Below, piece after piece: positions 3,952 to 60,930 of a DNA stretch of 64,000 bases. The stretch comes from Ascidia mentula. Taxonomy: Eukaryota > Chordata > Ascidiacea > Phlebobranchia > Ascidiidae. The first letter of the stretch is position 1. Each line of letters opens with the position of its first letter. Under the pieces are notes generated by a model. The model was not told where the DNA came from. It did no database searches and saw nothing but the letters and a program-made list of their open reading frames with translations. The stretch covers positions 992,001-1,056,000 of the forward strand of contig OX387198.1 of assembly GCA_947561715.1 (NCBI GenBank), read 5' to 3'. A program made the position numbers and the translations under genes.

Positions 3952-5086
3952 TGAGGTCTCATGTTTGGCACAACGATATTTTACAGCGATTTACGGCATG
4001 ATGGACAAAGGTTAGGTCATGAGGCTTGAATCTGTTAAATCCCACATGTTGTTACTTTGCTACATCGCTCACATATTGAGGCTTTTGGGGTAAATTCCTG
4101 ACAAACTTGTTCAAAAATTCAATTGAAAATTCAGAGTTGCAAAGCCCGAGAAGATGCAGATCTTAGATCTTATGGTGGTTTTGTATTGAAATATCACCAT
4201 TCCCGGCATTACGGGATTAACGACCACTCGTTTGTTTCATTTACAAACAAACTTCGACAATATCGCACACTTTGACATTCCATATTACCACATTCTATAT
4301 TAACAGGGCGAGTCTTCTTGTAGCTAAACCTAATATTATGATTCCCCACTCCCTCATAACCAGTCAAGCAAGTTCGAAAATAACGAAGAAGATAAACTTA
4401 ACCGCGTACCCTTATACAGTTTTGGGTTAAGAACGTGAATTCGAAATTAATGCTGAATAATCGAACTTGGCATTTGCGAACGTGGGCCTTCTCATAAACA
4501 TTCCGAACCTGTATGCAAAAACCACTGATTTTAAGTTAAATATGAAACAAACCAGGCATCTTTGAATATACAAGCGCAGAAACTTATAATGTCTTTAAGA
4601 CGAAATATACATTTCTGATATAAATCATTTATCGATCTGCATTTTTTACACAGATATTTATGACACGGTTATCAATCTACAGTTTTTCAGGGTAGTTTGG
4701 TTAAAGCATAGTTTTTAAACCTCGCAAAATACAAACATTTCCCTCAAATAAATTTTGGCACTTAATAAACAGTAGGAGACCCTCATGCGGCAAATCAGTG
4801 TTATCGGTTGGATTTACCCGGGAAAGAACAAAATCACCATTATCTAAATACGCCTCATAAAATGTTACATTGCTTCAATGTCCAATCTGCTTGGACGAAG
4901 TAATATTGTATTTATTGGCGAAAAAATGTAACAAACCAAATTGTAAAACACGTTTGGAATTCGTGACGATCTTTATTTGATGGATGAAGCCAGTTTTATT
5001 TATCTCTGCGGTGGGAGGAGCGCCGTCTCGCGTATTCCATCCGCAGGTATTTAACCGATAAGGTGGAACTTGTGGTAGGAAATGGG
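3952..5086. other. Intergenic region upstream of the cassette locus
   Basis: No coding exon is recognised. The stretch matches 52.95-54.12 kb along its length. Part of it (about 4.18-4.5 kb) is also recognisable upstream of the 60 kb and 63 kb genes (about 59.08-59.37 and 62.33-62.62 kb), so it belongs to a conserved upstream block of the cassette loci. Confidence 0.6.
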
Positions 5087-5178
5087 TATATATATGGACG
5101 GGTGAAGGAGGCGAGAACGCATTCTGGTCGGGTTCGAACTTACGGAAGATTCCAACACGAAGAAGATTTCATTCTAAG
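5087..5178 (+). promoter_or_regulatory. TATA box and noncoding exon 1 of the four-cassette locus
   Basis: TATATATATGG at 5087-5097 precedes a noncoding exon ending at 5178 (CTAAG|GTATTT). The same block occurs at 54121-54212 and, more diverged, at 59768-59853 and 63058-63143. No other promoter of this type is seen before 14.1 kb, so it appears to serve all the downstream cassettes. Confidence 0.65.
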
Positions 5179-5432
5179 GTATTTTGTTGTAAAAGTAAAA
5201 AGATTTAATTTGCGTGTGTTGGAAAATATTTTATCATAAAAATTTGTTGGTAAGAGTGGAAGGATAAGATTTAAGCAATTTTTAGCGTTACAAAATTAAA
5301 TAAGATAAAACAACAGATATGTTGGACAAAAGCTATCGTGGACTTTGTGTCCATAAGTTTCTTTAGTTCTAAAAGTGTGCTTTTAGTTGACAACAATTTT
5401 GTTTTCTTGTTTAAAGTTTCAACAAATCCATG

Positions 5433-6330
5433 ATGAAGGTTTTCATTTTCTCAGTTGTAATTCTTATATGCGTCGCGGGAACTTTCTCAGGTAAGTTTAC
5501 TCACTCTATCCCGTCTCTTCTATTGCGTGGTAATCACCAGTACGCACCCATACCTTTGGATTCAAGTTAAGTTTAATCGAAACTCAAACTGAATCTTGGT
5601 GAGATTCGCCGCTGAATTTCATTCAAAAACCTAATACGCCTCAAGGACAAAAACACCGATCGGGGTTTTCCCAAATGAGGCACAAAGTCGGTATAATGCC
5701 AACAATGTTACTGTAAGATGTGTGATTGACAAAATGGATTAAATTGTCAAAAGAAACACAAATGGTAAACACAGGTCGTGAAAATCTTAACCAATTGTGT
5801 GGCTCTAGATGGACAAACCGAGGCTGAATGTCGCGATTCATGCGAAGTTTCCACTGCCTGCAGCTCAGTAGCGACACCTGACGACTTGGTGGCTGGACAA
5901 TCTGAAGCTTGCACTGACTGTTTGTACGAAAAATGCCGGTGTAAGTGGCGCAAAGGGAATTTAGCATTTATAAAAACTGGTGCATGTTTTGTATAAAGGT
6001 AAACAATATCCAAAGTGGTTCGTACACGTTGTACGGTTTCCACAGTTTTTATTTAAATCCACGAAAAAGTGCAAAAATTTAAAGCCAATTTTATCCGTAT
6101 GCACAGACTACGGAAATGAAAACGGAAGTGGAGGCGGAAGCGAAAGCGGAAGTGCAGCAACAAGGGGAAGGACATTTTACTATATGCTGATGATAGCGAA
6201 GTGTTACGTGGATGAAATGGGTGATGGATGTGGATCGTGCATTCCTCCATCAGAGCAAACTTTGATTGGAATCAATACTTGCTACTCCTGCATGTTGAAT
6301 TGCGGAGGTTGGTGTGAAAAGCCTTGTTGA
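5433..6330 (+). CDS. Secreted Cys-rich protein, cassette 1 (signal exon, module A, linker plus module B)
   Basis: Exons: 5433-5490 (signal, begins MKVFIFSVVILICVA), 5809-5940 (module A), 6107-6330 (linker and module B, stop TGA). This predicts 137 residues. Acceptor of the noncoding leader is at 5416. A second in-frame ATG sits directly before at 5430; 5433 is preferred because it alone is kept in the paralogues. Module A keeps the 3,5,16,2,4 spacing. The exon 2 donor is CGGT|GTAAGT, phase 1. The last exon starts with a Gly/Ser repeat, then module B with eight Cys (spacings 8,2,13,2,3,3,3) ending in Cys-stop. The three-exon structure matches 54496-55381 and 60037-60930. Product predicted extracellular; biochemical role unknown. 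Confidence 0.8.
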
Positions 6331-7527
6331 TGCTTTATTAAAGCTTTGTATTTTTTTTAAATTATTATATATTCATATATTATAAGCAAAGTGGAGCCAA
6401 TAATATGAATTTTGTGAGCTGGAAATATATAACCACTCTTTCCACATATAAGGTCTCATCAGTGCAGCTTGGTGTGACTTATGTAATTTATATTCATTGC
6501 TCGCAAACGTGGTGACAAAAACACATAAATCCTTGTTCAAAATGAAATAGATTCTCCGTAGACGAGGATTCCATTCAGGAGACGGACAACGTTGTTGTTG
6601 ATTACGGGTTCTTTTTTTCTTTAGCGCAGAAAACCAATAAAAAGAAATTATTTGAGTTTGTTGTGTTACCTGAGAAACAATGTTTTTTGTCATAGAGCTT
6701 TTACAAAAATTTGTTTGGGAAACTTTCATCGTAGTAGGAATAAGTTTTCGAAAGCAAGAGAAGGATTTCGTTAAATTGCGCAAATTCATTTTGTAACAAA
6801 GGAAATAAATTTAATCAAAAAACGCGGCCACATTTGATATCTAACAATGTTTGGTAAAAATTTAGGCATTTACCACAGATTGTTTCCACATGATAAAATA
6901 CACCAGACAAAATCCATTGCGTTATTGACATTTACCCCAACTTCACATTATGATTTTAGTCAAATCGAAAACACAAATATTCTGTTTATTCATCAGCAGA
7001 ATTGGATCATTCACTGCCATCATGAACAGTTTCAATGTATAAGAACATAAAGAGAGCCGAAGTGGGTTTTTTTGAACAAGATTCGCCGCAGAATTTCATA
7101 GATAAACTCAATATGCCGCAGTGATTAAAAACACCGTTCGGGGTTTCACCAAATTAGGCATATTGCCTATAATGTTCTTCAATTTTAAATGTTACTAGAA
7201 CAACTTTGTGTCCACGCTTCTGATTTTATAAAATATGTTTCGCTTTTTAATAAAGCATCTTCAGTTGTACAAATAACATAAACAGAAAAGACATAGTTAG
7301 ATGCTAAAATGATAAAACGATAAAAACTGGTCGAACAGTAGAAACCTCTGGTGTTAACATACTGGACGACGCTCTGAGCAGGTGATACAAGTGACCTACT
7401 ACAAAGTCGGTATAATGCCTACAATGTTACTGTAAGATGTGTGATTGACAAAATGGATTAAATTGCCAAAACAAACACAAATGGTAAACACAGTTCGAGA
7501 AAATCTTAACCAACTGTGTGCCTCTAG

Positions 7528-8056
7528 ATGGACACGGCGAAGGTCAAACCGAGGCTGAATGTCGCGTTGCTTGCCAAGCTTCCACTAACTGCACCTCAGT
7601 AGCGACACCTGACGACTTGGTGGCTGGACAATCTGAAGCTTGCACTGACTGTTTGTACGAAAAATGCCGGTGTAAGTGGCGCAATGGGAATTTAGCATTT
7701 ATAAAAACTGGTGCATGTTTTGTATTAAGGTAAACAATATCCAAAGTGGTTCGTACACGTTGTACAATTTCCAAAGTTTGAAATCCAGGAAAAAGTGCAA
7801 ACTATTTTAGACAATTGTATCCGTATGCACAGACTACGGAAATGAAAACGGAAGTGGAGGCGGAAGCGGAAGCGGAAGTGCAGCAACAAGGGGAAGGACA
7901 TTTTACTATATGCTGATGATAGCGAAGTGTTACGTGGATGAAATGGGTGATGGATGTGGATCGTGCATTCCTCCATCAGAGCAAACTTTGATTGGAATCA
8001 ATACTTGCTACTCCTGCATGTTGAATTGCGGAGGTTGGTGTGAAAAGCCTTGTTAA
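7528..8056 (+). CDS. Cassette 2: module A and linker/module B exons without their own signal exon
   Basis: Exons 7528-7671 and 7833-8056 (stop TAA). The first is 12 bases longer than in cassette 1, adding a short Gly/His stretch before the module. All six module A Cys and eight module B Cys are kept. Both exons are open in phase 1, and the acceptor (CTCTAG) and donor (GTAAGT) are intact. No start codon with a signal peptide is found upstream within the unit, so expression would require splicing from the signal exon at 5433-5490 (141 residues in that case), or chaining after the cassette 1 module A exon, which is symmetric. Selection on function is suggested by the intact frame but is not proven. 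Confidence 0.65.
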
Positions 8057-9265
8057 AGCCTAATTGATGCTTTATTAAAGCTTTGTATTTTTTTTAAATT
8101 ATTATATATTCATATATTATAAGCAAAGTGGAGCCAATAATATGAATTTTGTGAGCTGGAAATATATAACCACTGTTTCGACATATAAGGTCTCATCAGT
8201 GCAGCTTGGTGTGACTTATGTAATTCATATTCATTGCTCGCAAACGTGGTGACAAAAATCACATGAATCCTTGTTTAAAATGAAATAGATTCTCCGTAGA
8301 CGAGGATTCCATTCAGGAGACGGACAACGTTGTTGTTGATTACGGGTTCTTTTTTTCTTTAGCGCAGAAAACCAATAAAAAGAAATTATTTGAGTTTGTT
8401 GTGTTGCATGAGAAACAATGTTTTTTGTCAAAGATGTTTTACAAAAATTTGTTTAGGAAACTTTCATCGTATTACGAATAATTTTTCGAAAGCAAAAGAA
8501 GTATTTCGTAAATTGCGCAAATTCATTTTGGAACAAAGGAAATAAATTTAATCAGAAAACGCAGCCACATTTAATATCTAAAAATGTTTGGTGAAAATTT
8601 AAGCATTTACCACAAATTGTTTCCACTTGATAAAATATACCAGACAAAATCCATTGCGTTATTGACTTCTACCCCAACTTCACATTATGATTTTAGAAGA
8701 AATCGAAAACACAAATATTCAGTTGATTCATCAGCAGAATTCAATCATTCACTGCCATCATGAACAGTTTCAATGTATAAGAACATAAAGAGGGCCGAAG
8801 TGGGTTTTGATGAACAAGATTCGCCGCAGAATTTTATCGATAAACTCAATATGCCGCAGTGATTAAAAACACCGATCGGGGTTTCACCAAATTAGGCATA
8901 TTGCCTACAATGTTCTTCAATTTTAAATGTTACTAGAACAACTTTGTGTCCACGCTTCTGATTTTATAAAACGTTTTTCGCTTTTTAATAAAGCATCTTC
9001 AGTTGTACAAATAACATAAACAGAAAAGACATAGTTAGATGCTAAAATGATAAAACGATAAAAACTGGCCGAACAGTAGAAACCTCTGGTGTTAACATAT
9101 TGCACGACGCTCTGAGCAGGTGATACAAGTGACCTACTACAAAGTCGGTATAATGCCTACAATGTTACTGTAAGATGTGTGATTGACAAAATGGATTTAA
9201 TTGCCAAAACAAACATAGGTTGTAAACACAGTACGATAAAATATTAACCAATTGTGTGGCTCTAG

Positions 9266-9787
9266 ATGGACAAACCGAGGCTGAATGTCGCGATTCATGC
9301 GAAGTTTCCACTGCCTGCAGCTCAGTAGCGACACCTGACGACTTGGTGGCTGGACAATCTGAAGCTTGCACTGACTGTTTGTACGAAAAATGCCGGTGTA
9401 AGTAGCGCAATGGGAATTTAGCATTTATAAAAACTGGTGCATGTTTTGTATAAAGGTAAACAATATCAAAAGTGGTTCGTACACGTTGTACGGTTTCCAC
9501 AGTTTTTATTTAAATCCACGAAAAAGTGCAAAAATTTAGAGATAATTTTATCCGCATGCACAGACTACGGAAATGAAAACGGAAGTGGAGGCGGAAGCGG
9601 AAGCGGAAGTGCAGCAACAAGGGGAAGGACATTTTACTATATGCTGATGATAGCGAAGTGTTACGTGGATGAAATGGGTGATGGATGTGGATCGTGCATT
9701 CCTCCATCAGAGCAAACTTTGATTGGAATCAATACTTGCTACTCCTGCATGTTGAATTGCGGAGGTTGGTGTGAAAAGCCTTGTTAA
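9266..9787 (+). CDS. Cassette 3: module A and linker/module B exons without their own signal exon
   Basis: Exons 9266-9397 and 9564-9787 (stop TAA). The module A exon is the 132-base form of cassette 1 (Asp-Ser-Cys-Glu-Val-Ser variant), while cassettes 2 and 4 have the 144-base form, so the two types alternate along the array. Cys positions, splice signals and frame are intact. The exon pair would give a 137-residue protein if joined to the distant signal exon at 5433. Confidence 0.65.
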
Positions 9788-10995
9788 AGCCTAATTGATG
9801 CTTTATTAAAGCTTTGTATTTTTTTTAAATTATTATATATTCATATATTATAAGCAAAGTGGAGCCAATAATATGAATTTTGTGAGCTGGAAATATATAA
9901 CCACTGTTTCGACATATAAGGTCTCATCAGTGCAGCTTGGTGTGACTTATGTAATTCATATTCATTGCTCGCAAACGTGGTGACAAAAATCACATGAATC
10001 CTTGTTTAAAATGAAATAGATTCTCCGTAGACGAGGATTCCATTCAGGAGACGGACAACGTTGTTGTTGATTACGGGTTCTTTTTTTCTTTAGCGCAGAA
10101 AACCAATAAAAAGAAATTATTTGAGTTTGTTGTGTTACCTGAGAAACAATGTTTTTTGTCAAAGATGTTTTACAAAAATTTGTTTAGGAAACTTTCATCG
10201 TAGTAGGAATAATTTTTCGAAAGCAAAAGAAGTATTTCGTAAATTGCGCAAATTCATTTTGGAACAAAGGAAATAAATTTAATCAAAAAACGCGGCCACA
10301 TTTGATATCTAACAATGTTTGGTAAAAATTTAAGCATTTACCACAGATTGTTTCCACTTGATAAAATATACCAGACAAAATCCATTGCGTTATTGACTTC
10401 TACCCCAACTTCACATTATGATTTTAGTCAAATCGAAAACACAAATATTCTGTTTATTCATCAGCAGAATTGGATCATTCACTGCCGTCATGAACAGTTT
10501 CAATGTATAAAAACATAAAGAGGGCTGAAGTGGGTTTTGATGAACAAGATTCGCCGCAGAATATCATCGATAAACTCTATATGCTGCAAGGACAAAAAAC
10601 ACCGATCGAGATTTCACCAAGTTAGGCATATTTCCTATAATGTTCTTCAATTTCAAATGTTACTAGAACAACTTTGTGTCCACGCTTCTGATTTTATAAA
10701 ACATGTTTCGCTTTTTAATAAAGCATCTTCAGTTCTACAAATAACATAAACAGAAAAGACATAGTTAGATGCTAAAAATGATAAAACGATAAAACTGGCC
10801 GAACAGTAGAAACCTCTGGTGTTAACATACTGGACGACGCTCTAAGCAGGTGATACAAGTGACCTACTACAAAGTCGGTATAATGCCTACAATGTTACTG
10901 TAAGATGTGTGATTGACAAAATGGATTAAATTGCCAAAACAAACACAAGTTGTAAACACAGTTCGAGAAAATCTTAACCAACTGTGTGCCTCTAG

Positions 10996-11536
10996 ATGGA
11001 CAAGGTGAAGGTCAAACCGAGGCTGAATGTCGCGTTGCTTGCCAAGCTTCCACTAACTGCAGCTCAGTAGCGACACCTGACGACTTGGTGGCTGGACAAT
11101 CTGAAGCTTGCACTGACTGTTTGTACGAAAAATGCCGGTGTAAGTAGCGCAAAGGGAATTTAGCATTTATAAAAAACTGGTGCATGTTTTGTATTAAGGT
11201 AAACAATATTAAAAGTGGTTCGTACACGTTGTATGATTTCCACAGTTTTTATTTAAATCCACGGAAAAGTGCAAAAATTTAGAGCCAATTTTATCCGTAT
11301 GCACAGACTACGGAAATGAAAACGGAAGTGGAGGCGGAAGCGGAAGCGGAAGCGGAAGTGCAGCAACAAGGGGAAGGACATTTTACTATATGCTGATGAT
11401 AGCGAAGTGTTACGTGGATGAAATAGGTGATGGATGTGGATCGTGCATTCCTCCATCAGAGCAAACTTTGATTGGAATCAATACTTGCTACTCCTGCATG
11501 TTGAATTGCGGAGGTTGGTGTGAAAAGCCTTGTTGA
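10996..11536 (+). CDS. Cassette 4: module A and linker/module B exons without their own signal exon
   Basis: Exons 10996-11139 and 11307-11536 (stop TGA). The Gly/Ser linker has two extra codons compared with cassette 1, and the Met before Gly-Asp-Gly-Cys is Ile. All Cys are conserved. Predicted length is 143 residues if spliced from 5433-5490. As for cassettes 2 and 3, no local promoter or signal exon is seen. Confidence 0.65.
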
Positions 11537-12293
11537 AGCCTAATTGATGCTTTATTAAAGCTTTGTATTTTTTTAAAATTATTATATATTCATATATTAT
11601 AAGCAAAGTGGAGCCAATAATATGAATTTTGTGAGCTGAAAATATATAACCACTGTTTCGACATATAAGGTCTCATCAGTGCAGCTTGGTGTGACTTATG
11701 TAATTTATATTCATTGATCGCAAACGTGGTGACAAAAAACACATAAATCCTTGTTTAAAATGAAATAGATTCTCCGTAGACGAGGATTCCATTCAGGAGA
11801 CGGACAACGTTGTTGTTGATTACGGGTTCTTTTTTTCTTTAGTGCTGAAAATCCAATAAAAAGAAATTATTTGAGTTTGTTGTGTTGCCTGAGAAACAAT
11901 GTTTTTTGTCAGAGATGTTTTACAAAAATTTGTTTGGGAAACTTTCATCGTAGTAGGAATAATTTTTCGAAAGCAAAAGAAGTATTTCGTTAAATTGCGC
12001 AAATTCATTTTGGAACAAAGGAAATAAATTTAATCAAAAAACGCGGCCACATTTGATATCTAACAATGTTTGGTGAAAATTTAAGCATTTACCACAGATT
12101 GTTTCCACTTGATAAAATATACCAGACAAAATTCATTGCGTTATTGACTTCTACCCCAACTTCACATTATGATTTTAGATGAAATCGAAAACACAAATAT
12201 TCTGTTCAGCAGAATTGGATCATTCACTGCCGTCATGAACAGTTTCAATGTATAAGAACATAAAGAGGGCTGAAGTGGGTTTTGATGAACAAG

Positions 12294-14112
12294 ATTTGGA
12301 TTGTTTCACCGACATTTGCCCACAATGTCAGACCGCTAATTTCTTGCAAAGGATCGAAGCTTGTCGTAAATGCAGCCAAGATTGCGCTGATCAGAACACG
12401 CGTAAGTTTCCATTTTTTCTGTACTTTTGCTTCCTTTAACTTGGTTCGCGCGGCTTCAATGTGGCCAATCAGCCGCTTGGTATTCAATGGTGTTATGGCC
12501 TCTTCTCTCACCCAATTCAGTTTTTCTATCTCATAAAATCGTGCTTTTACATAAATAAGAAAATACATTCATCGGACGAGAGGGTAGATGTGATGCAGGT
12601 CCTTTCCTTTAGATAATCGTAAACAACTTTTTGTAGAACCAGAAGTCGAACGTCAAACCATGGCAGAGTGTTTCGCTGCTTGTGAAGTTTCTCCTAAATG
12701 TAGCTTGGTGGTGACACCTAACGACCTTATCGTGAATCAGACGGAATCCTGTCAATCGTGCGTCAGGGGCGAATGCGATGGTAAGTGACGTAATATTAAG
12801 ATTCAATAGAATTCAGTTTATTTTTGACATCATCCAAAGTGGAAGTGGGATCGGTTAAAGCCACTTTTTTGCCTCAAATAGCAATGCTGGCTGATTTTGT
12901 TTGCAAATAAACGAAAAATATAATACCAAGCAAAACCACCACAAGCCATATTTCGTGATAATTTAACACATAGCTAGAGTCGTATATGTCATAGCCTGGA
13001 GGGGCGACGTTAAATGTAATAGGTTGCAGGACAAACTAAACTTTTATCAGATTACGGAACATTTTGATAAATTTAATTTTGGGTAAATACAAGTAGCCCA
13101 GATGAAATATTAGACTTCAACAGTTTGACATAATATACTAAAATGCTAATTGGACTCGTGATGAGCTTGGGCTAAAACTGTATTTGTTTGCTTCCAAGAC
13201 GCTGCCGACAGATACAGCGAGGAAAAAGTTGGAATCGATTGCGGGATTTGTGAGAAAGTAGATCAAGCTGATTGTTACGGAGCGGCGATGGATAAATAAT
13301 GTGACGATTGTGCTTCGGCATCGGATGAGACGGAGGTTGGAGTGACGAATTGCTACGACTGTCTACACGCGTGCAAAGGTGAATAGATTGTTGTTTTTAA
13401 TGCGGCTCTGACCACAAGCACCTAGGGAAGTCTCGACGAACCGCACGCGAAATGTTGCTTAAGCTGTGTTAAACCCCCAAGTCGAATGACAAAGCTTATT
13501 GTGATTTGTCTATAGTTAGCATTGTGCTAAACTGCTAACGTTTCGAACACTAATACTGCATTATCTGTGCGAACCATCCCAGTAACACAGGCTTTGTTTA
13601 ACCAAATCTCGTGACACTTGCGAATATGCAGAGCAGTGACGTCACAATTTGTTATTGTCCCATCTGCAGCGTAGCGCTATGTTGATCCCACTGTCAAAAG
13701 AACAAAAGTTAAATTGTCCGAGCCATTGCAACGTGCATTACGCATTAATATTGGAAAATAATGATGTTTAGGCATAGCGCCCTCTATAAGTTCTTTTAGT
13801 TATAGAGGGCGCTATGTGTTTAGGGGTCGACAGAATAGGGGGAAACCCCGATGCTTTCTGAAGTTGAATCTTAAATGCTGAGAAATTTGATTTGACTGCG
13901 TAAAATAAAGTGACTTCTTTCAGAAATCCTAACCTTAGTTTGTATTTAGCTACGTTCGTTCTTTTGTTGATTTGAAGCAGCCGAAAGTTTAGAATCCGTT
14001 TCTTAAACTGTGGAGTTTTGCAATCTTAACAAGAACGGCGGCAGTTAAAGATTTTGACGTCTTTTGAATCTAAAAAAACTTGTGTTTAGGAGAAGACACC
14101 GATGATGCTTAA
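12294..14112 (+). pseudogene. Hybrid B-A-B Cys-rich gene remnant joined to the cassette array
   Basis: Exons by comparison with 24.7-28.0 kb: 12294-12401 (short module B, six Cys, spacings 4,2,11,2,3), 12637-12780 (module A), 13199-13378 (module B) and 14090-14112 (Glu-Asp tail, stop TAA). Its left edge is a junction: sequence up to 12293 is cassette 3' flank, then it becomes the short-B exon of the longer gene type, with AACAAG acting as a possible acceptor in the right phase. A stop TAA at 13297-13299 interrupts the last module B (Glu-Glu in the 27.2 kb copy is Lys-stop here). There is no signal exon of its own. It could be a further terminal option of the array, giving a protein short of the last Cys residues, or a decaying remnant. 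Confidence 0.65.
13765..13824. mobile_element. 44-base perfect hairpin flanked by 8-base direct repeats (copy 1)
   Basis: Arms of 17 bases (13773-13789 and 13800-13816, starting CATAGCGCCC) are perfectly complementary around a 10-base loop. TGTTTAGG flanks both sides (13765-13772, 13817-13824) like a target-site duplication. It lies in the last intron of the Cys-rich gene. Confidence 0.6.
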
Positions 14113-14756: not shown

Positions 14757-15010
14757 TATGTAAAAAAACTGAACGGATCCGCTAGTGGCGCTGTCTACTC
14801 TTATCGTGACCACGTTGTTGCAATGGCAGCTCGGGATTCGTGCTCAGGACATCCTGAGTTCAAATCCCGGTGTGGTAAAAAAAAAAAAAAAAATGGCAGC
14901 ATTGGTCAAGCGCCCGACCCGTATACCAAGAAGAAAACCTGATCGGGATTCGTGGCCATGATAACCAGGGTTCAAATCCCGGTGTGGTAGAAAAAATAAA
15001 AAAAAATACG
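14757..15010 (+). mobile_element. Two adjacent tRNA-derived SINE-like fragments with A-rich tails
   Basis: GTTCAAATCCCGGTGTGG occurs twice (about 14859 and 14970), each time followed by an A-rich run. It matches the Pol III B-box consensus GGTTCGANNCC. The two units share the context CGGGATTCGTG. A single related unit is found at about 28590-28690 and 41730-41830 at the equivalent place in the other duplicates. No tRNA cloverleaf is formed, so a SINE remnant is preferred over a tRNA gene. Confidence 0.55.
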
Positions 15011-51333: not shown

Positions 51334-52637
51334 ATGAAATTTTTTCTTCTCTCAATTTCGCTCCTCGTCTGTGTCGCCAACACGTGGTCGGGTAAGTCCC
51401 CATTCATAGAATGAGGCCGTGTTATTTGTCAAAAAAATACTAATGTTTGAAATGAAGTTGGGTTTGAGGTTTGTCCAGACACTGTACTATCTTGCGCCTT
51501 TTGTGGCAACGTTATTGTCACGTGTTCTCGATTGGAAGTTCAGAAAACTTTTCAACTAAGTTGTTTTGAAATAAACGTAAATGCAGTGGTTTGTGCCATG
51601 TCTGGCATTACGCTGTGCAAAATAATAGCCTGTAACCACATGGGCGCCACCACTACAACTTCAAGCTTTAGCGAAATGTACGACTGTATTAAGTAATTAA
51701 GTGAACGTTTTTGCAATTTCAGAAGGACAAACTGCAGCCGAATGTTTCGCCGCATGTGAAGTTTCCACTGATTGCAGCTCCGTGGCGACTCCTAGCGACT
51801 TGTTGGTGAATCAAACTGAAGCTTGCGTCGAGTGTTTGAACGAAGAATGCGAAGGTAAGTGACGTCATATACAAGCGTTACGTGAACATTTGTATCAATG
51901 CATGGTAATAACAAAATATTTGTTGTGATTTTCACGAAGGAAAACATGCAGTGACGTAATTATGTTAATTGTTTTGTTTAACATTTAGTGACGTTTCTAT
52001 ACCGTATTCTTTTTACGTAAACCGGACAAAATCAACTGGACATAAAAAATGTGTCAAATATTATTTTCGTAAAAAAACATGTTCAAATATACATGGTAAG
52101 GTCTAACGTCGCGTTGAATGTTTCAAAGATGATGATGAGGAGGAGGAGGAGGAGAAGGAAGAGGAGGAGGAGGGTTGCAACATATGTCGTACAGTGGACA
52201 AAGCCGAGTGTTACGTGGATGAAATGGGGGATGATTGTGAATCGTGCGTTGCTCCGTCTGCAGAGACCGAGGCTGGAATCAAAGCTTGCTGCGATTGCTT
52301 GGAGGCATGCGAAGGTTAGGGCAGTTAGCAATCTGTACAATTGTAACTTATGCACTTTGTAAACAGCGAGCATTATATGCGGTGTGGTCGTATTGCGACA
52401 AAAGAAATATGGTTATAAGTTGATTGGCAACGATGACAAACTCTAACAATACCACGTAAATATTTGCTTTCGGACAAAACATTTGACCTAAAAAGTTCAC
52501 AAAATTTGAAAATAAAAAATATTGGTGTCAAAAAGGATAATTTAAACAACTCACACAGGATAAGTGAGAAATGCTTTCTAACATGAAATATCATTGCAGA
52601 AGATGAAGAAGACGACGATGACGATGATAGGAAGTAG
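51334..52637 (+). CDS. Secreted Cys-rich A-B protein with acidic tail (duplicate of the 2.6 kb gene)
   Basis: Exons: 51334-51391 (MKFFLLSISLLVCVA signal), 51723-51854 (module A), 52129-52314 (acidic run, module B), 52600-52637 (acidic tail, stop TAG). This predicts 137 residues. The acidic run is three residues longer than in the 2.6 kb gene and includes a Lys. In module B the Tyr of Cys-Tyr-Asp-Cys is Cys, giving an odd number of Cys (nine in the module). Other Cys are conserved, splice sites are intact and phases are all 1. Relative to its twin, intron 2 contains about 190 extra bases (near 51465-51650) and the 3' UTR about 130 extra bases (near 52690-52815). Poly(A) signal AATAAA at 52940-52945. 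Confidence 0.8.
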
Positions 52638-52945: not shown

Positions 52946-54120
52946 TGCGGTTTCATGTTTGGCACAACGATATTTTACAGCGATTTACATCATGATGGAC
53001 AAAGGTTAGGTCATGAGGCTTGAATCTGTTAAATCCCACATGTTGTTACTTGACTACATCGCTCACATATTGAGGCTTTTGGGGTAAATTCCTGAAACAC
53101 TTGTTCAAAAATTCAATTGAAAATTCAGAGTTGCAAAGCCCGAGAATATGCAGATCTTAGAGCTTACGGTGGTTTTCTACTTAAATATCATCAATCCCGG
53201 CATTATACCGGATTGACAACCATTCGTTTGTTTCATTTACAAACAAATTTCGACATTATCGCACATCTTGACATTCTATATTACCACATTCTATATTAAC
53301 AGGGCGAGTCTTCCTGTTGCTAAACCTAATATTATGATCCCCCACTCCCTCATAATAACCAGTCAAGTAAGTTTGCAAATAACGAAGAAGATTAACTTAA
53401 CCGCGTTCCCTCATACAGTTTTGGGTTAAGAACGTGAATTCGAAATTAATGCTGAATAATCTAACTTGACATTTGCGAACGTGGGCCTTCTCATAAACAT
53501 TCCGAACCTCAATGCAAAAACCACTGATTTCAAGTTAAATATGAAACAAACCAGGTACCTTTGAATATACAAGCGCAGAAACTTATAATGTCTTTAAGAC
53601 GAAATATACATTTCTGATATAAATCATTTATAGATCTGCATTTTTTTACACAGATATTTATGATACGGTTATCAATCTACAGTTTTTCAGGGTAGTTTGT
53701 TTCAAGCATAGATCCAGTATGTTTATATTATCCTTTACACCTAGGTTTGTTTTTAAACCACGCAAAATACAAACATTTCCCTCAAATAAATTTTGGCACT
53801 TAATAAACAGTAGGAGACCCTCATGCGACAATTCAGCGTTATCGGTTGGATTTACCCGGGAAAGAACAAAATCCTCATTATCTAAATACGCCTCATAAAG
53901 TGTTACATTGCTTCAATGTCCAATCTGCTTGGACGAAGTAATATTGTATTGGCGAAAAAATGTAACAAACCAAATTGTAAAACACGTTTGGAATTCGTGA
54001 CGATCTTTATTTGATGGATGAAGCCAGTTTTATTTATCTCTGCGGTGGGAGGAGCGCCGTCTCGCGTATTCCATCCGCAGGTATTTAACCGATAAGGTGG
54101 ATCTTGTGGTAGGAGATGGG
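52946..54120. other. Intergenic region upstream of the 54 kb cassette locus
   Basis: Matches 3952-5086, with a short insertion near 53710-53755. No coding exon is supported. Confidence 0.6.
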
Positions 54121-54212
54121 TATATATATGGATGGGTGAAGGAGGCGAGAACGCATTCTGGTCGGGTTCGAACTTATGGAAGATTCTAACACGAAGAAGA
54201 TTTCATTCTAAG
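54121..54212 (+). promoter_or_regulatory. TATA box and noncoding exon 1 of the two-cassette locus
   Basis: TATATATATGG at 54121-54131, then a noncoding exon ending at 54212 (CTAAG|GTATTT), as at 5087-5178. Confidence 0.65.
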
Positions 54213-54495
54213 GTATTTTGTTGTAAAAGTAAAAAGATTTAATTTGCGTGTGTTGGAAAATATTTTATCATAAAAATTTGTTGGTAATTAAGAGTGGAAG
54301 AATGAGATTTAAGCAATTTTTAGCGTTACAAAATTAAATAAGATAAAACAGCGTGCAAAAATATTCTTGCATTTTACAGATATGTTGGGTAAAAGCTATC
54401 GTGGACTTTGTGTCCATCAGTTTCTTTAGTTCTAAAAGTGTGCTTTTAGTTGACAACAATTTTGATTTCTTGTTTAAAGTTTCAACAAATCCAAG

Positions 54496-55381
54496 ATGAA
54501 GGTTTTCATTTTCTCAGTTGTAATTCTTATATGCGTCGCGGGAACTTTCTCAGGTAAGTTTACTTACTCTATCCCGTCTCTTCTGTTGCGCGTTAATCAC
54601 CAGTACGCACCAATTAAAGTTAAGTTTAATCGAAACTCAAACTCAGTCTTTGCGAGATTCACCGCTGAATTTCATTCATAAACCTGATACGCCTCAAGGA
54701 CAAAAACACCGATCGGGGTTTTCCCAAATGAGGCACAAAGTCGGTATAATGCCTAATGTTACTGTAAGATGTGTGATTGACAAAATGGATTAAATTGCCA
54801 AAACAAACACAAATGGTAAACACAGGTCGTGAAAATCTTAACCAATTGTGTGGCTCTAGATGGACAAACCGAGGCTGAATGTCGCGATTCATGCGAAGTT
54901 TCCACTGCCTGCAGCTCAGTAGCGACACCTGACGACTTGGTGGCTGGACAATCTGAAGCTTGCACTGACTGTTTGTACGAAAAATGCCGGTGTAAGTAGC
55001 GCAATGGGAATTTAGCATTTATAAAAACTGGTGCATGTTTTGTATAAAGGTAAACAATATTAAAAGTGGTTCGTACACCTTGCACGGTTTCCACAGTTTT
55101 TATTTAAATCCACGAAAAAGTGCAAAAATTTAGAGCCAATTTTATCCGCATGCACAGACTACGGAAATGAAAACGGAAGTGGAGGCGGAAGCGGAAGCGG
55201 AAGTGCAGCAACAAGGGGAAGGACATTTTACTATATGCTGTTGATAGCGAAGTGTTACGTGGATGAAATGGGTGATGGATGTGGATCGTGCATTCCTCCA
55301 TCAGAGCAAACTTTGATTGGAATCAATACTTGCTACTCCTGCATGTTGAATTGCGGAGGTTGGTGTGAAAAGCCTTGTTAA
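54496..55381 (+). CDS. Secreted Cys-rich protein, first cassette of the 54 kb locus
   Basis: Exons: 54496-54553 (MKVFIFSVVILICVA signal, acceptor of the leader at 54479), 54860-54991 (module A), 55158-55381 (Gly/Ser linker, module B, stop TAA). This predicts 137 residues, nearly identical to the 5.4 kb product. One Met in Y-M-L-M is Leu here (Y-M-L-L). Cys patterns and phases are intact. The poly(A) context matches the 5 kb cassettes. Role unknown, predicted extracellular. Confidence 0.8.
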
Positions 55382-56586: not shown

Positions 56587-56927
56587 ATGGACAAGGTGAA
56601 GGTCAAACCGAGTCTGAATGTCGCGTTGCTTGCCAAGCTTCCACTAACTGCAGCTCAGTAGCGACACCTGACGACGTGGTGGCTGGACAATCTGACGCTT
56701 GCACGGACTGTTTGTACAAAAAATGCCGAAGCGGAAGCGGAAGCGGAAGTGCAGCAACAAGGGGAAGGACATTTTACTATATGCTGATGATAGCGAAGTG
56801 TTACGTGGATGAAATGGGTGATGGATGTGGATCGTGCATTCCTCCATCAGAGCAAACTTTGATTGGAATCAATACTTGCTACTCCTGCATGTTGAATTGC
56901 GGAGGTTGGTGTGAAAAGCCTTGTTGA
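56587..56927 (+). CDS. Second cassette of the 54 kb locus: module A and module B fused in one exon (intron lost)
   Basis: One open exon of 341 bases (phase 1 entry, stop TGA) carries module A and then module B. At 56727 the codon after Lys-Lys-Cys runs straight into the Gly/Ser linker (TGCCGAAGCGG), so the usual short intron, the start of the next exon and some linker are missing. The frame is preserved and the Gly/Ser linker is shortened. The acceptor CTCTAG is intact. There is no signal exon between 55.4 and 56.6 kb, so use would need splicing from 54496-54553 (132 residues). All 14 module Cys are retained. The fusion probably arose by deletion between similar GGAAGCGG-type sequences. Confidence 0.7.
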
Positions 56928-59767
56928 TGCTTTGTTAAAGCTTTGTATTTATTTTTAAATTATTATATATTCATATATTATAAGCAAAGTGGAGCCAATA
57001 ATATGAATTTTGTGAGCTGGAAATATATAACCACTCTTTCGAAATATAAGGTCTCATCAGTGCAGCTGGGTGTGACTTATGTAATTTATATTCATTGCTC
57101 GAAAACGTGGTGACAAAAATCTCATAAATCCTTGTTTAAAATGAAATAGATTCTCCGTAGACGAGGATTCCATTCAGGAGACGGACAACGTTGTTGTTGA
57201 TTACGGGTTCTTTTTTTCTTTAGCGCAGAAAACCAATAAAAAGAAATTATTTGAGTTTGTTTTGTTACCTGAGAAACAATGTTTTTTGTCACAGAGCTTT
57301 TACAAAAATTTGTTTAGGAAACTTTCATCGTAGTAGGAATAAGTTTTTCGAAAGCAAGAGAAGGATTTCGTTAAATTGCGCAAATTCATTTTGGAACAAA
57401 GGAAATAAATTTAATCAAAAAACGCGGCCACATTTGATATCTAAATATGTTTGGTGAAAATTTAAGCATTTACCACAGATTGTTTCCACTTGATAAAATA
57501 TACCAGACAAAATCCATTGCGTTATTGACTTCTACCCCAACTTCACATTATGATTTAGAAGAAATCGAAAACACAAATATTCTGTTTATTCATCAGCAGA
57601 ATTCAATCATTCAATGCCGTCATGAACAGTTTCAATGTATAAGAACATAAAGGGGCTGAAGTGGGTTTTTATGAACAAGATTCGCCGCAGAATTTCATCG
57701 ATAAACTCAATATGCCGCAGTGATTAAAAACACCGATCGGGGTTTCCCCAAATGACGCCAAAAGTCGGTATAATGCCTATAATGTTCTTGTAAGATGTGT
57801 GATTGACAAAATGGATCAAATTGCCAAAAAAGACAATAAAAGCACAAGTTGTAAACACAGTACGATAAAAATCTTGAAGAGGGTGAAGTGTGTTAAAAAG
57901 CCAAACAGATGCACTTCCTTTCAAAATGAAATAATTAACTAATGGCAACGATACGCAAGACCCGATTTTCGGGCTGTGTACCGGAAAATTATGACGCCAG
58001 GGTTCACATTCAAGGCATGTGAGTGGCAAATGACAGAGGTCTAACTGGTTCGGAATATATTTATAATGTTTAGGTCGCTGTGTTTATGGTGACAACACAT
58101 CAATGTTTTCGCCCGACATAATCCTGATGAAATCCGGTTAGATTAGAGAACCCTTTATGGAGAATCGTTGTATTGCAGACGAAATTTCGGTGAATGTAAT
58201 TAATATTTGGTTGTCCACTAAGGTTAGTTGTTAACAAATTAGAAAATGCGGCACGACTGCAACAGCAACTCAGTATTGATATTAAATGTGCTTCAAGGAT
58301 CATTTCTCGATACTTACTTCTTTCATAACTGATTTTGCCACTCGAACTTGACTTTTTTACCACTGTTCGGTCAAATTGGACGCGGGCTTACGTGCGGTGC
58401 CAACTTTATGTGGTTTAATTGATAAACGATCCCACAGTTTTACGCACGGTTCGACGATGTATTCGAGAAACTCGGGTGTAACTTTGTTTCCAAAACACGA
58501 GTTTAGCCACAAACAAACCGTGGAGTTTCAAAATATTTCTTCTGGTCCTACCGGTCTTTCACCTCACATTAATCAAAGTCTTCGGATTATCATAAATTGT
58601 AATCGGGTTCCGGTTGACCTCACGAGCCTGAAATACAAAACGATCATTTTGCATTTAGTTTATTGTTGAGATGTTGGCATTAAATAAAACTCTTGCCGGC
58701 TTTTACCGCCACGTTTTTCATAGTCTTTACTTTGTGTCTACCAAGGTATTGTTAATAAAGTCCAGTCGAGCGTTGATTGCCAATCACGAATTTAAAACAT
58801 TATTGCGCAGTTTCGTAAATCCAATTCTTGTGTATGTGGGAGGCATTTTCTTGTCGCCTTCAAATCGTGTAGTGGATGAGCCGTAGATCGTGTGGAAGTT
58901 TCCGGGCCTGGAACTTGGAAGATGAGTTTGCATCAATTTCTTTTATTGTTTGACCACATTTCTGATACATTAGACTTTTGAAGTAAAGTACTGACAAATA
59001 TGGAAAAATCCTGAAAAATAGCCCGAGTTGCAAAACGAAAATGCAGATCTTAGTGCGATGTTTCATGTTAAGATATCACAGACTTTACCCGGCATTATGT
59101 GATTAACGATCAGTTGTTTATTTCATTCACAAACAAACCTCAATTTTTCGCACTCTCTAGCATTCCGCATAAACCACACAGCAGGGCGGGTCTCGATCCA
59201 CGATCATCTCACGCAGATAACCAGTCAAGCAAGTTAGTTTGCTGATAGCGAACATCGTTTAACTTCTGTACACTAAAGTAGGTCAAGATCGCGAACTCAC
59301 AATTAATGTTGATTTGACTTATTCGCGAGCGTGGGTTTTTCCACAAACATTCCGAATTTAAAACCATTGATTTCAAGTTCAATCAAGAAACATTGGTTTA
59401 TTTCTGATATAGAAACATCTATGGAGATGTATGGGGTTTTCCGACACAGAAACTTACTGTCATCGATCCACAGATTCAACATGCGAAAAAATTTTTTATT
59501 TTATGGCGTAAAAAAATCAGCAATCAAAATTTCAGAAAATAATATAAATAATCCAGAGTCTGTCTGTTTAACGTTAATTTGATATATATATTCTGCCAGC
59601 GTTTGCAGGCAACATCGGTATCGCTTATTCAACTAGAATTTATTTCAACTTAGGAATTTATGATGTTCCGGTATCTGAAGGCTAAATTGGGTCTTGCGAA
59701 ACGCCTCCGCCTCGTGTATTCCACCCCAGGCAATTTGTCACTTAGCTGGATCGTGTCTGGTGATGGG
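56928..59767. other. Long intergenic region before the 60 kb gene
   Basis: To about 57.84 kb this is cassette 3' flank and the start of another intron-1-type repeat, with no module exon following. About 58.17-59.7 kb is a block repeated upstream of the next gene at 61.63-62.96 kb. An ORF at 58376-58669 (97 codons) is shortened in the second copy (61837-62025), matches nothing I recognise and lacks splice support, so it is not called. AT-rich, no other signals. Confidence 0.5.
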
Positions 59768-60036: not shown

Positions 60037-60930
60037 ATGAAGGTTTTCATTTTCTCAGTTGTAATTCTTATATGCGTCGCGGGAACTTTCTCAGGTAAGT
60101 TAACTTACTCTATCCCGTCTCTTCTGTTGCGCGGTAATCACCAGTACGCACCCATTAAAGTTAAGTTTAATCGAAACTCAAACTGAATCTTGGTGAGATT
60201 CGCCGCTGAATTTCATTCATAAACCTAATACGCCTCAAGGACAAAAAGCACCGATCGGGGTTTTCCCAAATGAGGCACAAAGTCGGTATAATGCCTACAA
60301 TGTTACTATAAGATGTGTGATTGACAAAATGGATTAAATTGCCAAAACAAACACAGGTTGTAAACACAGGTCGTGGAAATCTTAACCAATTGTGTGGCTC
60401 TAGATGGACACGGCGAAGGTGAAGCCGAAGCTGAATGTCGCGATGCTTGCGAAGCTTCCACTGACTGCACCTCTGTAGCGACACCTGACGACTTGGTGGA
60501 TGGTCTACCTGACGCTAGCGTAGAGTGTTTAAACCAAAAATGCCTGTGTAAGTAGCGCAATGGGAATTTTGCATTCATAAAAACTGGTGCATGTTTTGTA
60601 TAAAGGTAAACAATGTTAAAAGTGGGATTGAAACGTTGTAAGATTTCCACAGTTTGAAATCCACAAAAAAGTGCAAAATTTATTTTTGATACAATTTTGT
60701 CCGCATGCACAGACAACGGAAATGAAAACGGAAGCGGAGGCGGAAGCGGAAGTGCAGGGACAATGGGAAGGACATTTTACGATAGTCTGATGATAGCGAA
60801 GTGTTACGTGGATCAAATGGGTGGTGGATGTGGATCATGTAATCCTCCACCTGAGCAAACTTTGATTGGAATCAATACTTGCTACTCCTGCATGTTGAAT
60901 TGCGGAGGTTGGTGTGAAAAGCTTAGTTGA
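60037..60930 (+). CDS. Diverged secreted Cys-rich cassette protein with two Cys replaced
   Basis: Exons: 60037-60094 (MKVFIFSVVILICVA signal), 60404-60547 (module A), 60713-60930 (linker, module B, stop TGA). This predicts 139 residues. In module A the fourth Cys is Ser (D-A-S-V-E-C), and at the C-terminus the last Cys is Ser (C-E-K-L-S-stop). All other Cys remain. The module A exon is the longer 144-base type with G-H-G-E-G-E. The linker and module B differ from the other cassettes at several positions (G-T-M-G-R, M-G-G-G-C, N-P-P-P-E), so this is an older duplicate. The frame and splice sites are intact, which argues for function. Confidence 0.78.

Follow-up and report, generated by a model that had tools for sequence, protein, structure and literature searches.

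The sequence analysed here, referred to as the window, is a stretch of 64,000 nucleotides from the ascidian Ascidia mentula (assembly GCA_947561715.1, contig OX387198.1, positions 992,001 to 1,056,000 of the forward strand), and all coordinates are counted from its first base. In the mitochondrial COX1 of this genome there are 16 AGA/AGG codons, many at sites that become conserved glycines only when read with the ascidian code (code 13). Close to its start lies a locus, array 1, in which one promoter and one signal-peptide exon are followed by four cassettes (c1 to c4) starting at 5809, 7528, 9266 and 10996, with a spacing of approximately 1.73 kb. Each cassette is a pair of exons that encodes a module A with six cysteines (Cys) and a module B with eight, and every frame is open. 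The features of array 1 are as follows.

5087..5130, plus strand: TATA-type promoter (TATATATA at 5087, shared with other copies), followed by the first exon
5430..5490, plus strand: signal-peptide exon, recognised from its translation, with a phase 1 end before GTAAGT
5809..5940, plus strand: cassette 1 A exon, type a
6107..6330, plus strand: cassette 1 B exon, with its own stop
7079..7160, plus strand: start of the duplicated unit, a copy of intron-1 sequence 5602-5682 (80% identity in alignment)
7528..7671, plus strand: cassette 2 A exon, type b; a signal exon of its own was not found
7833..8056, plus strand: cassette 2 B exon, with its own stop
9266..9397, plus strand: cassette 3 A exon, type a, with the same sequence as the cassette 1 A exon
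9564..9787, plus strand: cassette 3 B exon, with its own stop
10996..11139, plus strand: cassette 4 A exon, type b
11307..11536, plus strand: cassette 4 B exon, with its own stop

The coordinates, frames, phases, splice sites and B-exon stops that a sequence-only reading of this DNA had given for the four cassettes were all confirmed. The signal exon begins with the ATG at 5430 or 5433 and ends at 5490, with the donor GTAAGT at 5491 (MMKVFIFSVVILICVAGTFS). The splice boundaries of all four A exons are CTCTAG/AT at the 5' end and CGGT/GTAAGT at the 3' end, both in phase 1. It had also been claimed that only the first cassette has a signal exon and a promoter. This holds within array 1, although copies of both are present elsewhere in the window (54094/54496, 59763/60037 and 63053/63327). 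The promoter stretch (5060-5185) recurs with 96% identity at 54094, and part of it with 79% identity at 59763 and 63053. The signal exon stretch (5400-5500) recurs at 54463, 60004 and 63296 with 98-99% identity.

The copies at 54094 and 54496 belong to a second array with the same plan, array 2, at 54.1-57.9 kb.

54094..54219, plus strand: promoter and first exon (96% identity to 5060-5185)
54496..54553, plus strand: signal exon, by homology to that of array 1
54860..54991, plus strand: A exon of the first cassette (d1), type a
55158..55381, plus strand: B exon of the first cassette
56587..56927, plus strand: second cassette (d2), an open frame in which a type b A exon and B are fused in one exon; a signal exon was not found
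57678..57875, plus strand: stub, a piece of intron 1 (80% identity) with no exon behind it

Over the upstream part of array 2 (54094-54553), the 5' leader has 87% and the signal exon 98% identity to array 1. In d2, a deletion of 194 alignment columns took out intron 2 and joined A in frame to B. No A or B module matches at a useful score are present between 56927 and 60406. Two further genes, with promoter and signal exon at 59763/60037 and 63053/63327, are each complete with their own 5' part, and a more distant, older relative has a signal exon, read by eye, at about 2615. It is unlikely that the two arrays are a haplotype mis-assembly, since the cluster has many copies, with offsets and identities that differ (78-98%). 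In addition, the genome note for the species (PMC11109543) describes HiFi reads, the use of purge_dups and 1.2% duplicated BUSCOs.

Modules A and B are probably related, because in a joint 24-row alignment of A and B exons the B rows land on the A half of the first sequence. The spliced cassette 1 protein matched no family in Pfam-A at E≤10 (NCBIfam was outside the search), and the fused A-B exon matched no PDB sequence at E≤10. When the A-B protein was searched against the whole genome, 32 matches reached E≤10, of which 30 are in this one cluster and the remaining two, off the cluster, are very weak (E 1.6 and 5.4). AlphaFold2 models have a mean predicted local distance difference test score of 47.9 for the B module (11-row alignment) and 53.8 for the fused A-B exon (single sequence), which is too poor for fold comparison. 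Rfam at its gathering thresholds gave no match in the window. No publication on this locus or protein family turned up among the top-ranked titles and abstract openings, a search that mostly did not cover subscription papers.

The DNA ahead of every signal-less cassette starts as a repeat of mid-intron 1 sequence (5602-5682), found at 7079, 8817, 10547 and 56138 with 78-80% identity. This is followed by a 241-base stretch that is not present in cassette 1 and then by the final 127 bases of intron 1. The duplicated unit therefore extends from a point within intron 1 to the 3' flank, and this breakpoint explains why the signal-less cassettes are without promoter and signal exon. The 3' flank of the unit includes approximately 105 bases (6376-6480, recurring behind the other B exons). 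Outside the cluster they match nine contigs at no fewer than 31 places with 82-90% identity, a count that is a lower bound as 40 of 1139 candidates were scored. By its matches this segment is a dispersed repeat, carried within the cassette unit.

The A exons fall into two types separated by a 12-base length difference and several substitutions, with c1, c3 and d1 of type a and c2, c4 and d2 of type b. The order is thus a-b-a-b in array 1 and a-b in array 2, and within both arrays type b is confined to signal-less cassettes. The A exons of cassettes 1 and 3 are identical, while the pair from cassettes 2 and 4 shows 3 differences in 144 bases. Most of the protein differences between cassettes lie in the first half of module A, their B proteins differing by a few residues only. 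Useful diversity would amount to two A types, each present twice, rather than four. Since the alternation is seen in both arrays, the a-b pair probably predates the duplication of the array, and it was probably doubled to a-b-a-b in array 1. The far 3' flank groups the cassettes otherwise, with five sites linking c1 to d2 and three linking c2 to d1.

Cassette 1 and the fused cassette of array 2 also have in common the loss of 11 bases directly at the stop codon (near 6328 and 56925). Their stop is TGA, in the same position as the TAA of cassettes 2 and 3. The shared deletion and TGA look like a sign of exchange between the arrays.

Separate promoters or signal exons between the cassettes would have spoken against a single shared 5' end. 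Homology searches identified no promoter or signal-exon copy in this DNA, and a plus-strand scan for an exon of 12-45 codons that begins with ATG and has a phase 1 end at a good donor gave no candidate in any of four intervals. The same scan recovered the known signal exon in both of two control regions, one of which gave two extra false hits. When any GT was accepted, weak hydrophobic candidates appeared in three of the four intervals, none common to all. With neither a copy nor a good candidate exon between the cassettes, secretion of a product of cassettes 2-4 would most likely require splicing from the upstream signal exon.

It is very improbable that each downstream cassette instead has a weak promoter of its own and a short unrelated first exon. 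The motif TATAAAA does stand ahead of all four signal-less cassettes (7227, 8965, 10695 and 56286), each time with TTCAGTT 33 bases downstream. However, the window holds 32 copies of TATAAAA against 24.9 expected, which is no clear enrichment (7 of 100 shuffles reach 32). The head insert in which it lies varies as much as the 3' flank and other noncoding DNA (14 of 237 against 44 of 753 columns variable), and the scan gave no signal exon with a good donor behind it.

The arrangement is suggestive of exon choice from one signal peptide, which the sequence-only reading had put forward. Exon choice calls for a shared 5' part with a donor, for compatible 3' ends, and for ends that have no promoter or start of their own. 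The signal exon with GTAAGT at 5491 supplies the first and the four phase 1 A-B pairs, each with its own stop, the second. The homology search and all four scanned intervals agree with the third, leaving room for a weak unrelated promoter. The anatomy, the frames and the duplication boundaries are directly visible: a small gene for a two-module Cys-rich secreted protein, with signal, A and B exons, was partly duplicated in tandem, and the duplicated unit, which starts midway through intron 1 and reaches the 3' flank, left the extra cassettes headless. From this it is inferred that transcripts from the single promoter would sometimes read through the cassette 1 poly(A) signals, with the donor at 5491 then spliced to a downstream A acceptor. 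The outcome would be alternative two-exon 3' ends, giving a type a protein or, if the b isoform is used, a type b protein behind one signal peptide. This is possible and slightly favoured, with a probability of roughly 0.46. The presence of the same plan in two arrays counts for it. A broader claim would see here a compact chordate exon-choice locus, with one promoter and signal exon serving interchangeable two-exon Cys-module cassettes, so that at least two mature proteins are chosen at splicing, and with the plan kept through array duplication and refined by the A-B fusion. That the whole of this holds is doubtful.

Proteins with several A modules had also been suggested, made by joining A to A and skipping the inner B exons. 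The four A exons, phase 1 at both ends, would allow this, and three-module relatives with C, A and B exons (C-A-B) occur in the same cluster. Against this, the inner B exons would have to be skipped within one transcript, and the complete genes with signal, A and B exons (S-A-B) in the window carry one A, so such proteins are hardly to be expected. One C-A-B copy lies directly downstream of array 1:

12298..13383, plus strand: truncated C-A-B copy, with a C exon cut on its 5' side, an A exon at 12639-12776 and a B exon with TAA

This is the hybrid downstream gene (12294) of the sequence-only reading, and it starts in the middle of its first module exon. Homology to the C-A-B copies elsewhere begins at 12298, within the C exon. 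In two compared copies the C exon starts behind CTGCAG with sequence that is absent from this one, and neither has the TAA in the B exon. An AG slightly upstream (CAAG/AT) fits phase 1 and may be a weakly used acceptor, but has no clear pyrimidine tract. Because its first exon is truncated and its B exon has a stop, the copy looks dead, and it is very probably outside any working system.

The coding exons of all four signal-less cassettes are free of stops and frameshifts. Nine frame-breaking noncoding indels are confined to the signal-less copies, from which 3.1 would be expected in coding columns and none is observed (P=0.045). Over all six copies there are 17, with 5.9 expected and none observed (P=0.003). 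One event at the alignment end (columns 1446-1450), an artefact of the cassette 4 cut point, is omitted from this test. Coding columns are affected by three length changes, one of 12 bases, one of 6 bases and the A-B fusion, all of which preserve the frame. Variable columns number 4 of 221 in exon B, 23 of 166 in intron 2 and 105 of 1057 in all noncoding sequence, and in the second half of A none of 71 is variable in the four cassettes of array 1 (4 of 71 once d2 is included). The open frames appear to do slightly better than neutral decay would predict.

A number of observations weigh against exon choice. One of the nine indels, a 5-base gap in cassette 2, may be ancestral because the outgroup gene e1 carries the same gap, and by simple arithmetic the frame test without it has an expectation of about 2.8 and a P of about 0.06. 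The 6-base change sits in a GGAAGC repeat, and the 12-base change is the one that separates types a and b. For c2 to c4 alone, variation in B (1 of 221 columns) is not significantly below that in the following 3' flank of about 240 columns (6 of 238; P=0.12). In module A the proportions of synonymous (pS) and nonsynonymous (pN) differences are about equal (0.064 and 0.072 for c1/c2), a ratio of nonsynonymous to synonymous change (dN/dS) of approximately 1, and exon B has no synonymous and only few amino-acid changes among c1 to c4 and d1. Tracts without any difference, 581 columns long for c2/c3 and 294 for c1/c2 and c1/c3, have p values of 0.0005-0.0015 in 2000 permutations, with p<0.05 in 9 of 15 cassette pairs; the test presumes evenly spread changes, and exon constraint could produce long runs too. 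As such tracts are seldom or never reached in permutations, exchange of sequence between cassettes by gene conversion is likely, and this would also preserve frames. Poly(A)-type hexamers lie behind the B exon in all four scanned intervals. Mutually exclusive exon clusters rely on RNA pairing of a docking site with each variant. Here, pairing of intron 1 with the four cassette heads was no better than in shuffles (z +0.68, +0.40, +0.41 and -0.67), as measured by whole-stretch duplex energies, a crude test that a short docking site could escape.

Purifying selection was considered as the cause of the low divergence of B and was set aside in view of the missing synonymous changes and of the c2/c3 tract of 581 columns. 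The exons are conserved as DNA and not through selection on the protein, and conversion explains this equally well. The comparison of dN/dS that the sequence-only reading had recommended gives a value of about 1 in A and no synonymous change in B. This value alone is no marker of a pseudogene, as two genes with their own promoters, e1 and f1, are also near 1 in module A (pS 0.185, pN 0.180).

These results can also be read as the signature of silent, recent partial duplicates, in which cassettes 2-4 and the cassette at 56587 look intact only through youth and through conversion from the expressed first cassette. The dN/dS values, the long identical tracts and the low noncoding divergence between cassettes (approximately 2-5% in the 3' flank, though up to approximately 10% in introns) fit this explanation, as do the dead or truncated neighbours, namely the C-A-B copy (12298) and the intron-1 stub (57678). 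It accounts less well for the absence of frameshifts where about three are expected, although conversion could mask decay. Nor has type a overwritten the type b A exons, the A-B fusion is in frame (a chance of one in three), and there is little change in B and in the second half of A on either side of a variable intron 2. Silent duplication is a serious alternative, nearly as likely as exon choice. Exon choice retains in its favour that there is one promoter with one signal exon, the like phases at both ends of the A exons, a stop in each B exon, kept frames and the lack of a signal exon between cassettes, and is held back by the youth of the cassettes, their apparent exchange and the dN/dS near 1. 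Gene conversion between cassettes is compatible with their use.

Ordinary tandem arrays of lineage-specific Cys-rich secreted genes change fast outside the Cys frame and undergo gene conversion, and each copy usually retains its own promoter and signal exon. The present cluster is similar in its tandem copies, fast change outside the Cys frame and conversion, and the usual plan is seen at 60037 and 63327 but not in cassettes 2-4. In genes with alternative last exons, every terminal exon has its own stop and poly(A) signals, as each 3' end has here; the ends in array 1 are near-identical tandem pairs of exons, however, rather than diverged terminal exons. The alternatives of insect serpin-1 are single exons behind a long common body. 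In array 1 the signal peptide would be the only shared coding part, and the alternative unit would be two exons. Insect serpin-1, a secreted protein whose gene has an enlarged set of alternative 3' coding exons, as in Pteromalus puparum (PMC10513286), is the closest proven parallel to array 1. All 21 C-terminal forms of PpSerpin-1 were confirmed by reverse-transcription PCR, and the alternative exons are discussed in connection with positive selection and lower synonymous rates (PMC10513286).

If the cassettes are used, the locus would be a secreted-protein gene that diversifies by copying everything except promoter and signal peptide, seen at an early stage and with two arrays for comparison. 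If they are silent, it would be a clean example of partial tandem duplication yielding intact-looking headless gene copies, which may become false genes or false multi-module proteins in annotation pipelines.

Some of the other copies have changes of their own. The gene at 60037 (60406-60927) lacks one Cys in module A (AC to AS) and, in module B, the final one (PC to LS), and this paired loss could correspond to one lost inter-module disulphide. The upstream S-A-B relative is present a second time (A exon at 51719), and in this copy (52152-52325) a stop replaces the Trp near the end of the B exon and one Tyr is changed to Cys.

The region from 15650 to 49000, together with 20 kb on either side of the window, is a complex segmental array of TPR-like, protein-kinase and C-A-B Cys genes. 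Its copies occur at several offsets, for example near 13-14, 21-22, 35 and 49 kb, with 78-98% identity, and are partly inverted downstream. Between the truncated C-A-B copy and this region, two direct copies of a repeat lie 112 bases apart (14831-15005), with an A-rich tail and a tRNA-like B box. ARAGORN calls no tRNA in them, and the repeat is perhaps a tRNA-derived short interspersed element.

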